Shown here piece by piece: positions 12,516 to 53,909 of a stretch of 64,000 nucleotides of DNA. The notes under the pieces were generated by a model. It was not told the origin of the DNA. It saw nothing but the letters and a program-made list of their open reading frames with translations, and ran no database searches. The DNA comes from Alcaligenaceae bacterium (GTDB lineage Bacteria; Pseudomonadota; Gammaproteobacteria; Burkholderiales; Burkholderiaceae_B): assembly GCA_013416395.1 (NCBI GenBank), contig JACCEP010000003.1:496001-560000 (forward strand), written 5' to 3'. Within the stretch, counting starts at the first letter, position 1. Every line of letters starts with the position of its first letter. A program made the position numbers and the translations under genes.

Positions 12516-13117
12516 GTGATGATCTCCTAAAGGCACGACAAAGGGCGCCCCGTGCGCCCTTGACACCTTATAGGGTAACACACAATATGAAAAAAAACCA
12601 ATTACTACAAACACTTACGCAAACAAAGAGCTACTCGCCGGGGTAAAGCACTTTATTTTAGACCTAAAAGACAGGGCATTTCTGGCCTGCTTCGCGCCAT
12701 ACCCGTTTTCTTCGATATACCCGTTTTCTTCGATATACCCGTTTTCTTCGATATACCCGTTTTCTTCGATATACCCGTTTTCTTCGATATACCCGTTTTC
12801 TTCGATATACCCGTTTTCTTCGATATACCCGTTTTCTTCGCTATATCCGTTTCTTCGCTATATCTTCTACATAGATCCGTCGCTCTACTGCTCTCATGGC
12901 TATGTTTCCTTTGTCACCATGCTCACTTCGTCGTTATGCTTGCCTCGTCGCTATACCCGCCCTCCGTTATGCCCGCGCCATCGTTCAACCTTATCCCGTC
13001 TACGCAGGGCCCACTGCCACCACTACGGCCGGTGGCCAGACAGGCCACCTGTACAATGACTTTATCTCGTGTACGCCGTGTGTACGCCCCTCGAACCTGC
13101 AAAATAAAATGGATCAC
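12516..13117. other. 602-bp intergenic region holding an 18-bp array
   Basis: This lies between two divergent genes. Nearest the small gene is A/T-rich sequence that probably holds its promoter. From 12702 it carries the 18-bp tandem array, which fades into related T/C-rich sequence to about 12965. The open frame that reaches back from xth to 12896 covers only the decaying array and has no supported start. Confidence 0.6.
12702..12862. repeat. 18-bp tandem array, seven perfect units plus two variants
   Basis: The unit CCCGTTTTCTTCGATATA is repeated without change seven times (12702-12827). An eighth copy has one base changed (GCTATA), and a ninth has a base change and a 1-bp deletion. There are no spacers, so it is not a CRISPR array. 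It is the best-preserved repeat in the window and likely varies in copy number. Confidence 0.97.
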
Positions 13118-13909
13118 ATGAAACTTGCAACGTGGAACGTAAACTCACTCAGGGTGCGCCTGCCTCAGGTGCTAGACTGGCTACAGGCCAACCCAGTGCA
13201 TGCCCTCTGCCTGCAAGAACTTAAGCTTGCCGACGACAAATTCCCACTCGAGGCCTTTACCGAAATCGGCTATCAGGCACAATGGGCAGGCCAAAAAACC
13301 TATAACGGCGTGGCGATTATTGGCCCGGCCGAAAGCACAAATGTCCAGCGCAACATCCCCGGGTTTGATGACCCGCAACAGCGTATCGTGGCCGTCACCG
13401 TAGAAAGCCCGATCGGTGACATTCGCGTCATCAGTGCTTACTGCCCCAACGGCCAAAGCGTGGGCAGCGACAAATACGAATACAAGCTTGCCTGGTACGC
13501 CGCCTTGCAAAACTGGCTGGCCGATGAACTCAAAGAAAACCCCAGGCTGGCCATTCTTGGCGACTACAACGTTGCCCCCACCGACGAAGACGTCCATGAT
13601 CCGGCTAAATGGGAAGGCGACATACTGGTTTCGCCCGCCGAACGGGAGGCGCTCTCATCGCTGCTTGGGCTTGGCCTCACAGATGCCTTCCGCATGTTTC
13701 CTCAAGAAGAGAAATCATTTACCTGGTGGGACTATCGCCGCTTTGCGTATCGTCGCAATGCAGGCCTGCGCATTGATCATATATTGCTCTCCGACGCGCT
13801 CGTTCCTTACTGCACCAGCTGCGTCATCGACAAGCAGCCACGCGGCAACGAGCAACCTTCTGATCACACACCCGTCGTGGCCACGCTCGACTTCACCCAA
13901 AAAATTTGA
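13118..13909 (+). CDS. xth: Exodeoxyribonuclease III
   Basis: A 263-residue AP endonuclease and 3'-5' exonuclease acting in base-excision repair. Motifs of the EEP fold are all present: KLATWNVNSLRVR at the start, the metal-binding Glu in LCLQELK, ISAYCPNGQ, LGDYNVAPTDEDVHDP, GLRIDHILLSD and the C-terminal catalytic SDHTPV. The start is set at 13118 (MKLATWNVNS), which matches the family start. An in-frame ATG nine bases earlier is possible; no clear ribosome-binding site precedes either. The gene stands alone downstream of the 18-bp repeat array. Confidence 0.93.
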   Translation: MKLATWNVNSLRVRLPQVLDWLQANPVHALCLQELKLADDKFPLEAFTEIGYQAQWAGQKTYNGVAIIGPAESTNVQRNIPGFDDPQQRIVAVTVESPIGDIRVISAYCPNGQSVGSDKYEYKLAWYAALQNWLADELKENPRLAILGDYNVAPTDEDVHDPAKWEGDILVSPAEREALSSLLGLGLTDAFRMFPQEEKSFTWWDYRRFAYRRNAGLRIDHILLSDALVPYCTSCVIDKQPRGNEQPSDHTPVVATLDFTQKI

Positions 13910-28822: not shown

Positions 28823-29587
28823 ATGAGTGTATGGAACCGCTTGCGCAATCGACTGTGGCGCCCTGCCCCCCACGCTGATACCAGTGCAGAGGCGGTCCAA
28901 CAACGCGACATGACACTTATGCTCAAGCAGTTGGCACGTGAAGCGGCGCCCGCCCGTCTGGGGCCGGGCAGCACCCTGTCAGGGCAAGGCCTGATCGTGT
29001 TTGATCTGGAGACTACGGGGCTTGATACGCGCCGCGATGAAGTTTTGTCCGTCGGTGCCGTCACGCTCGATAATCAGGCTATTTGCCTGGGCGATACATT
29101 CAGCCGTATTCTGGCGACACCAACGGCGCTTGACCCCGACAACCAACTGATACACGGTCTTACCCGCCACGATCTGGAGCACGGAACACCACCGCAGCAG
29201 GCTCTTGTCGATTTACTGCGCTACGCCTCGGGCAGGGTGTGGCTGGCCTACCACGCAGAATTTGACCGACGCATGCTGCGAAGAGCCATGATGCAATGGC
29301 TCGGCATTCGCTTTGACCCAGCCCCGCTTGATCTCGCCGAATTGGCTCCCATGTTGTGCCCGGGCATGGTCGCGCCAGCTGATGGCCTGGATGGCTGGCT
29401 ACACGCGTTCAAAATAGATGTTTGCGCACGGCATGACGCCGCCGTCGATGCAATGGTTACTGCTGAGCTTGCGCTGATACTGCTGACGCGCGCCAGGCAG
29501 CAAGGTTATGAGAATTGGGGCCAGCTAAATCAGGCGCGCCAGCGCTGGCGGCGGCAACAATTACACCCGGACGGCCCCATGGGCTGA
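28823..29587 (+). CDS. DEDDh 3'-5' exonuclease (DNA polymerase III epsilon-like)
   Basis: A 254-residue exonuclease of the DnaQ superfamily. Catalytic residues are visible: Asp61 and Glu63 in IVFDLETTGLD, the second motif VWLAYHAEFDRRML, and the third motif HDAAVDA near residue 207. The first 50 residues are basic and have no assigned fold. It is coupled to the DUF294 protein gene (12-bp gap), a pairing seen in other proteobacteria. It is not the replicative epsilon subunit: the N-terminal extension and operon partner differ. Substrate is unknown. Confidence 0.87.
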   Translation: MSVWNRLRNRLWRPAPHADTSAEAVQQRDMTLMLKQLAREAAPARLGPGSTLSGQGLIVFDLETTGLDTRRDEVLSVGAVTLDNQAICLGDTFSRILATPTALDPDNQLIHGLTRHDLEHGTPPQQALVDLLRYASGRVWLAYHAEFDRRMLRRAMMQWLGIRFDPAPLDLAELAPMLCPGMVAPADGLDGWLHAFKIDVCARHDAAVDAMVTAELALILLTRARQQGYENWGQLNQARQRWRRQQLHPDGPMG

Positions 29588-29651
29588 CCGGGTTGCGACG
29601 GATTATATTGTTGTTAAACAGGCAAGTTGCTACACAAGCAAATGCCGCCCT

Positions 29652-29820
29652 GATCAAAGCACAGCATTACTTGCGCACGCACGCGCAACCCGATCAGAGC
29701 AAGCGCTCAATTTCTCATAAAGCCCGGGCAACGTGATCAGAGTAAGTGCTCGTTTTTTCACAAAGCCCACCCTCTATGATCAGAGAAAGCGCTCGTTTTC
29801 TTTCATGTAGCGCCACTTGC
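29652..29820. repeat. 43-bp tandem units in register with the 3' end of the RluF-like gene
   Basis: GATCA anchors occur at 29652, 29692, 29735 and 29778. The unit at 29778 lies over the last codons and stop of the pseudouridine synthase gene (GATCAGAGAAAGCGCTCG). Units at 29735 and 29692 repeat it with few changes (GATCAGAGTAAGTGCTCG, GATCAGAGCAAGCGCTCA) and share TCAYAAAGCCC further along. The unit at 29652 is strongly decayed. Confidence 0.85.
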
Positions 29821-30514
29821 CCGGAGGTAAGTCACCCAGCACCACATTGCCCATGCGTACGCGCTTAAGGCCCACAACCTTGAGCCCCACCATCTCGCAC
29901 ATACGGCGGATCTGGCGTTTTTTGCCTTCGCGCAACAGAAAATGCAACTGATCTTCGTTTTGCCAGCTTACCTTTGCCGGACGCAATGTCGAGCCATCCA
30001 TAGAAAGACCATGGTGAAGAAGTGCCAGACCATTATGGGCAATTTTGCCCTGCACCCTCACCAGATATTCTTTTTCGACCTCGGAGTCTTCACCCACCAG
30101 TTGCCGTGCAATACGCCCGTCTTGGGTTAGCACCAGTAAGCCAGTGGAATCGATATCAAGCCGCCCTGCTGGGGCCAGGCCGCGCAAATGCATGGGCTCA
30201 AACGAAATGGGCGCATGATCGCCACGGTAGCGGGTGGCTGCCGAGATCAGCGACGCCGCATTGCGGTAGCCCTGCTCGGCTTGGCCCGACACGTAGCCCA
30301 CGGGCTTATGCAGCAAGATGGTAACGCGTGCAGTCTGGCGGCGCTGAGCCTGTCGTTCGAGGGTGATTTTTTGGTTTGGCCAGGCTTTGCTGCCCAGTTC
30401 AGACACCACCTCACCGTCGACCCGCACCCAGCCTCGTTCGATATAGCTGTCGGCTTCGCGACGTGAGCACAGCCCTTGTTGGGCCATAATTTTTGAAATT
30501 CGGATTTTTTCCAT
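29780..30514 (-). CDS. RNA pseudouridine synthase, RsuA/RluB/RluF family
   Basis: A 244-residue enzyme that isomerises a specific uridine in rRNA. An N-terminal S4 RNA-binding domain (RISKIMAQQGLCSRREADSY) precedes the catalytic domain with motif GRLDIDSTGLLVLTQDG, whose first Asp is the nucleophile, and the C-terminal GKKRQIRRMCEMVGLKVVGL. The last part, GNVVLGDLPPGKWR, is closest to RluF as I recall it, so U2604 of 23S rRNA is the likeliest target, but RluB-type or RsuA-type specificity is not excluded. Its 3' end is the apparent source of a tandem repeat downstream. Confidence 0.85.
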   Translation of the reverse strand: MEKIRISKIMAQQGLCSRREADSYIERGWVRVDGEVVSELGSKAWPNQKITLERQAQRRQTARVTILLHKPVGYVSGQAEQGYRNAASLISAATRYRGDHAPISFEPMHLRGLAPAGRLDIDSTGLLVLTQDGRIARQLVGEDSEVEKEYLVRVQGKIAHNGLALLHHGLSMDGSTLRPAKVSWQNEDQLHFLLREGKKRQIRRMCEMVGLKVVGLKRVRMGNVVLGDLPPGKWRYMKENERFL

Positions 30515-53151: not shown

Positions 53152-53253
53152 AGCGCCACATCAAACGCGCCTATCTTAAGCAAGGTGGCTGGTCTGGACT
53201 ACGTGACAGCGCGCCGAAGCGCTGCCACGTCTAATTCAAACCACACAAATGCA

Positions 53254-53443
53254 TTTCGATCAGGCAGCTGCGCTTTAGTCACATACATGTTTTTCGAACA
53301 GGCATCCGCGTTTCAATCAGGTACCTGCTTTTCAATCAAACATCCACGTTTCCATCACGTAACAGCTTTTCAATCAGACACCCACACTTCCATCACGTGA
53401 CTGTATTTCGACCAGGAATCTGCCCTTCAATCACGAAAGTTGT
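53254..53443. repeat. 19-bp tandem array ending on the yajQ stop codon
   Basis: Units beginning TTTCRAYCA or CTTCMATCA start at 53292, 53311, 53330, 53349, 53368, 53387, 53406 and 53425, exactly 19 bp apart; two earlier, weaker units start at 53254 and 53274. The last unit (53425) contains the yajQ stop and last codons. Confidence 0.88.
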
Positions 53444-53909
53444 TGAACTGCAGCGGCAGGTCGACATCTGTTTTACGCAGCAAAGCCATGGCAGCCTGAA
53501 GGTCATCGCGTTTTTTGCCGGTAACGCGCAGCTTGTCGCCATTGATCTGTGACTCAACCTTGAGCTTGGCCGCTTTCATTGCAGCAATAAGCTTTTTGGA
53601 CTGCGCCTGTTCAATGCCCTGACGTACGGTGACCTTGCGCCGCGCACCCGAAACGTTTTCGAGCGGATCACCGATCTCCATGCAACGTATATCAATACTG
53701 CGCGCTGTTAACCGGCCACGCAAAATATCTAGCATTTGATTAAGCTGAAAAACACTGGGGGCAGACTGGGTTACCACATACCCTTCCAGCTCGAACACGG
53801 CGCCCGTACCCTTAAAGTCAAAACGGGTTTCGATCTCGCGATTGGCTTGATCAACCGCGTTGCTAAGTTCGTGTTTATCTACCTCTGAAACCACATCAAA
53901 AGATGGCAT
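53427..53909 (-). CDS. yajQ: YajQ family cyclic-di-GMP/nucleotide-binding protein
   Basis: A 160-residue cytoplasmic protein with two alpha-beta repeats. It begins PSFDVVSEVDKHELSNAVDQ, contains FDFKGTGAVFELEG and ends QAAMALLRKTDVDLPLQFNN. Members bind nucleotides, and in Xanthomonas a homologue is a cyclic-di-GMP effector. It stands alone. Its final codons form the last unit of the 19-bp array that fills the gap towards yadH. Confidence 0.93.
   Translation of the reverse strand: MPSFDVVSEVDKHELSNAVDQANREIETRFDFKGTGAVFELEGYVVTQSAPSVFQLNQMLDILRGRLTARSIDIRCMEIGDPLENVSGARRKVTVRQGIEQAQSKKLIAAMKAAKLKVESQINGDKLRVTGKKRDDLQAAMALLRKTDVDLPLQFNNFRD

Follow-up and report, generated by a model that had tools for sequence, protein, structure and literature searches.

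Why do the last codons of a pseudouridine synthase gene, together with its stop codon, recur in the DNA behind the gene? We addressed this question in the window (the whole 64-kb stretch of DNA analyzed), in wider samples of the 5.08-Mb genome that contains it, and in related genomes. The features at the locus are as follows.

28823-29587, forward strand: gene for an RNase_T / DnaQ-like 3'-5' exonuclease (PF00929, E 1.8e-17).
29588-29678, no strand: remainder of the convergent gap, with a large imperfect stem-loop; a fourth copy claimed here at 40 bp (best match 29649-29661) is not significant.
29679-29721, reverse strand: unit U3, identical to U2 at 33/43 positions and to U1 at 27/43.
29722-29764, reverse strand: unit U2, identical to U1 at 29/43 positions.
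29765-29807, reverse strand: unit U1, comprising the last eight codons (MKENERFL), the TGA stop and 15 nt of 3' flank.
29780-30514, reverse strand: pseudouridine synthase gene with S4 and PseudoU_synth_2 domains, RsuA/RluF-like, the source of the units (PF00849, E 4.3e-14; PF01479).

The synthase gene exceeds the cut-off of TIGR00093 and falls below those of the RluF, RsuA, RluB and RluE equivalogs. The initial annotation had placed the exonuclease gene upstream of it; in fact the two genes converge, which places the array between their 3' ends.

The repetition itself is well supported. A repeat search of the window recovered three 43-nt units in register at spacings of 43 and 43, with the stop codon (29780-29782) inside U1, and Tandem Repeats Finder (TRF) independently reported a period of 43 with a score of 112. 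At the array the best two-copy score reaches 40, whereas none of 1000 shuffles exceeded 13; the coding tail alone, compared with the intergenic DNA, scores 18, and the shuffle maximum is again 13 (0/1000). This bears out the original observation that the gene tail and stop are matched by two downstream units of exactly 43 bp. All three units agree at 24 of the 43 columns. The further, decayed copy described at 40 bp did not hold up: it aligns best with U3, at a score of 9 that 64/1000 shuffles equal, and its best alignments with U1 and U2 are equalled by 214 and 393 of 1000. It also falls inside the large imperfect hairpin. A proposed drop in similarity with distance from the gene depends on 29/43 versus 27/43 identities, a difference too small to carry it, and the accompanying suggestion that the outer copies are older is not supported by the sites uniting pairs of units, which number nine for U2 and U3, five for U1 and U2, and three for U1 and U3. 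If anything, the distal copies U2 and U3 would be the youngest pair, the difference being small.

Comparison with relatives identifies where the units came from. The closest relative compared, G004, is taken as Allopusillimonas ginsengisoli strain SBSA and is called the sister here. Its synthase ends in KENERFV, the last seven codons differing by a single base; it has the same convergent neighbor, but the array is absent. The gap between the flanking BLAST matches measures 93 bp in the sister versus 176 bp here, a difference of 83 bp or about two units, corresponding to one unit there and three here. The synthase genes of other relatives likewise have similar final codons and no array. Since the sister has a near-identical gene end, the same neighbor, a gap shorter by about two units and no array, the gene tail is the source of the array, as the initial annotation had proposed. 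The same array beside an unrelated gene end, the observation that would point to another source, was not encountered in the relatives.

A survey of 104 orthologous loci (our own included, some genomes represented twice; two more loci ended at contig edges) ranked the window's locus first with a score of 16, followed by 14, 14, 13 and 13. Among the 14 best loci listed, only L084 and L085 besides our own have a match across the stop. L072 and L081 (score 14, equalled by 0/200 shuffles) have the stop outside the match. L084 and L085 (score 13, equalled by 2 and 1 of 200 shuffles) include the stop but in a different context, and we did not treat them as further cases of the phenomenon. In these last two, one of them from a genome titled Malikia, a 23-mer similar to the end of the gene with its stop recurs 42 bp downstream, at about 2755-2819, and adjoins the start of the following gene.

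The array may be younger than the split between the two species. U2 and U3 differ at 10/43 positions (corrected divergence 0.28), and four-fold sites differ between this genome and the sister at 13120/35880 positions, or 36.6% (corrected 0.50; 192 orthologs), with 34/120 in the synthase gene itself. Because the divergence of the units lies below that of the species, these values are consistent with gain of the array after the split, with the wide error that 43 sites entail.

Could the units serve a purpose at the 3' end, as binding sites for a protein or small RNA or as a bidirectional terminator? The RNA of 29575-29790 folds better than its shuffles on both strands (z -3.49 on the reverse strand, -2.66 on the forward), and the 24 columns common to the three units would suit a conserved element. 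The longest predicted stem, however, pairs the end of U3 with the exonuclease stop region and not the units with one another: 29584-29597 is complementary to 29684-29697 at 93% of 14 positions (2/1000 shuffles as good). No terminator-like site was found in the gap between the convergent genes, and Rfam covariance models gave 0 matches at gathering score in the 64-kb window. Moreover, the array is missing in the sister, no comparable array occurs among the orthologous loci tested, and the arrays at other genes described below are unrelated in sequence. We therefore regard a functional 3'-UTR element as improbable. Separately, the stretch 29584-29697 forms a long imperfect palindrome between the convergent genes.

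A dispersed mobile repeat of REP or MITE type that landed at the gene end is harder still to credit. The 17-base core of the units occurs without mismatch only at the three array places in the 5.08-Mb genome; elsewhere it has no match at 0-1 mismatch, and it matches two sites at two mismatches and 42 at three. These 44 weak matches, which outnumber the 24 obtained in total with the reversed pattern, are the one point in its favor. BLAST aligned the region elsewhere only over 15-25 bp, with E values of 0.13 or worse, leaving no second place of note, and the unit includes coding sequence that is also present in array-free relatives. A dispersed family (REP, MIRU or MITE) was accordingly rejected, with no similar copies found elsewhere in the genome.

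At the locus itself, an ordinary two-step tandem duplication explains everything. Whether it is an isolated case depends on the ends of other genes, which the initial annotation had recommended searching. It had called this the clearest case in the window, but a second gene has a comparable array of about five units:

53237-53426, reverse strand: array of 38-bp units aligned in register with the DUF520 stop codon (TRF 53250-53435).
53427-53909, reverse strand: DUF520 (YajQ-type) gene (PF04461).

The sister shares this array (L220 16790-16946) and has one unit more. An initial tail test with looser criteria, applied to 494 kb of this genome, found 2/429 tails and 1/387 internal controls, and TRF on the same 494 kb revealed further arrays in register with stops in L149, L150, L151 and L155 as well as at the DUF520 gene. 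We then extended the sampling to 1.15 of the 5.08 Mb, made up of 40 evenly spaced stretches of three large contigs and a single 350-kb piece of a fourth, which is not a random draw of the genome. Genes were defined as the longest ORFs of at least 100 amino acids, so called starts may sit too far upstream. A tail was counted if a repeat with a lag of 15-119 covered the last nine coding bases and the stop; thresholds from 12 to 20 were computed, and the score of 15 used below was not set before all looking.

In this genome, 18/936 tails score at least 15 and 13/936 at least 20, compared with 2/936 and 1/936 mirrored starts and 5/936 and 3/936 mid-gene controls. When the 200 downstream bases were shuffled once per gene, 0/936 reached 14. 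The excess of tails over starts (p 0.0004) persists under a generous test of 3270 ATG/GTG candidates for the 936 genes, which raises the start count only to 4 (p 0.004). The 18 genes include the synthase and YajQ-type genes that prompted the test; 16 lie outside the window. Four other relatives pooled yielded 1/939 tails and 4/939 starts: G001 1/163 and 0, G002 0/317 and 1, G003 0/159 and 2, and G021 0/300 and 1. The single G001 case is a 15-bp repeat continuing from the coding end. Among the relatives, mid-gene controls were run for G002 (4), G021 (3) and the sister (1/374), the last having 3/374 tails and 3/374 starts. The difference between 18/936 here and 1/939 in the four relatives (p 3.6e-5) makes an isolated event without genome-wide meaning very improbable.

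The genes with repeated tails are unrelated, and nothing was seen that joins them. They include genes for enolase, an RsmI-type methylase, fumarase, a histidine kinase, a GlgE-type protein, 4-alpha-glucanotransferase, LysR, LysE and ABC proteins; two of the 18 ORFs have no Pfam match and one has a match below cut-off only. Tail periods range from 17 to 98 bp. As only 7/18 are multiples of three, the copied stops are in general not in-frame back-ups. Of the new events, the cleanest is at L252:2573-3016, where 76 bp of a gene tail are duplicated and the sister has one copy; a Pfam search of this ORF gave no match. The enolase tail is repeated with a 74-bp period.

Repeats are also abundant away from gene ends. 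Counting TRF arrays with a period of at least 15 in non-coding DNA, we found 40 per 122 kb of gaps in this genome, 7 per 44 kb in the sister and 2 per 116 kb in the four other relatives. The density here is about 19 times that of the four relatives (p 6e-10), with the sister intermediate (p 0.002 against the four; p 0.096 against this genome, not significant). This amounts to some 35 loci per megabase sampled, a quarter of them straddling stops. TRF reports 72-100% matches within these arrays. They share next to no sequence: among 66 arrays of this genome, coding ones included, only three pairs match at E<=0.01, and in two of these the partners are overlapping parts of a single array. In coding DNA this genome shows no such excess: it has 26 arrays in 1.15 Mb (22/26 with periods divisible by three), compared with 14 (G002) and 12 (G021) in samples of 0.4 Mb each, and 4 (G001) and 2 (G003) in samples of 0.2 Mb each. 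These counts do not demonstrate a genome-wide slippage mutator.

Arrays of this genome were also compared with the corresponding gaps of the sister. The 350-kb piece carries 30 arrays of all kinds, some overlapping, of which 23 have a resolvable sister gap. In five of these 23 gaps the sister has a repeat scoring at least 12 whose period is equal to, half or twice that found here (periods here 74, 108, 38, 18 and 21, the one of 38 being the YajQ-type array); among the remainder, one has the same period at noise level and one a repeat of different period. The window also contains a nearly perfect array of an 18-bp unit (12699-12862; 9.2 copies, 97%), which stands 34 bp before an ORF at 12896 and where the sister gap is 237 bp shorter.

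The position of the arrays raises the possibility of a process specific to gene ends, such as termination-coupled duplication, R-loops or reverse transcription of mRNA 3' ends, that copies the tail outward. Ten of the 40 non-coding arrays here span a stop and none a start, 15 of the 19 in codirectional gaps fall within the half nearer the stop (p 0.019), and repeats at gene junctions favor tails over starts by 18 to 2, or to 4 with generous starts. Yet 30/40 arrays span no stop, and divergent gaps are as densely populated (0.31 per kb) as codirectional (0.29) and convergent (0.37) ones. The bias is also absent from the sister, where one array spans a stop and two span starts, and the site patterns of the focal units give no outward succession of copies. 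Matches to reverse transcriptases number four in this genome (G000) and none in the array-bearing sister, and hence do not track the arrays. On balance, such a process seems unlikely, if less so than the alternatives weighed above.

We consider it probable that the array is a non-functional, decaying minisatellite that arose by tandem duplication across a stop codon, one of many lineage-specific duplications. A 43-bp segment with the gene tail and its 3' flank would first have been duplicated in tandem, by slippage or unequal exchange, and the new unit would then have been copied once more. With the gene's own end intact, the copies would escape selection and drift. The species, and apparently the sister to a lesser degree, would have accumulated short, locus-specific tandem duplications in non-coding DNA. 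Those straddling a stop would persist because they leave the gene whole and unchanged, and those straddling a start would be rarer, probably through disturbance of the 5' leader. Overall, the pattern suggests that harmless small duplications have built up across the lineage, not that the copies form a device.

Several findings sit less comfortably with this explanation. The similar densities in divergent and convergent gaps fit badly with strong selection near promoters. The sister has no stop-over-start bias, and its array density does not differ significantly from that of this genome (p 0.096). The species of the window is represented by a single strain. Mid-gene controls were not empty (5/936), the first tail test gave 2/429 versus 1/387, and the core of the units has its 44 matches at 2-3 mismatches against 24 backwards.

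What might underlie the excess was sought in repair and replication genes. Loss of SbcD was rejected as a cause: this genome and the sister have no match over cut-off, but the same is true of G003 and G021, whose samples yielded no non-coding array, and just 4/41 genomes have such a match. RecJ and MutS are present in 5/5 congeners and do not track the arrays, and the exonuclease I C-terminal family, found in 0/5, is uninformative. A candidate correlate, and a correlation only, is a pair of adjacent MutS domain V genes (L250:7535-10728; G000 C33:317535-320728) with no other Pfam match at E 0.001, located about 1 kb from the enolase gene. Of 41 genomes, only this one, the sister and G019 have a close relative of the first gene (E <= 1e-20). 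That the Allopusillimonas pair acquired an unusual DNA transaction which creates or preserves non-genic tandem duplications and favors gene ends is a speculative idea that we think unlikely to be correct.

Several known systems resemble these arrays in part. Bacterial VNTRs or minisatellites, including mycobacterial MIRUs, are tandem intergenic units of tens of bases whose copy number can vary, much as the YajQ-type array differs by one unit between two species. MIRUs are one dispersed family of similar sequence, unlike the arrays reported here. REP and BIME elements form a palindromic dispersed family in the gaps between genes, often behind them; the location is similar, but ours are locus-specific direct repeats of a gene's own tail. 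In the study of Borg elements, about half of the tandem repeat regions are described as intergenic or starting within gene ends, and the direct repeats as arising independently, in genes or between them; the units are perfect, A-rich and carried on extrachromosomal archaeal elements (PMC9879509). The likeness is a first unit within or partly within the gene end, since U1 holds the last codons and stop and 18/936 genes have repeats in this register. The focal units differ from perfect Borg units in being degenerate (63-77%) and in belonging to an ordinary bacterial genome assembly. With head-to-tail copies at a constant period and a copy number that differs between related genomes, the array has the features of a minisatellite. 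No report of stop-spanning tail arrays in bacteria was found among the listed titles and abstract openings of openly licensed papers.

Small tandem duplications are common bacterial mutations that seldom leave lasting traces. This lineage, with a sister that shows the single-copy state at some loci, offers natural examples of duplications arising, decaying and lengthening 3' flanks, and is a place to seek the repair or replication difference behind the arrays. For genome annotation, such arrays should not be taken as regulatory elements without further evidence.
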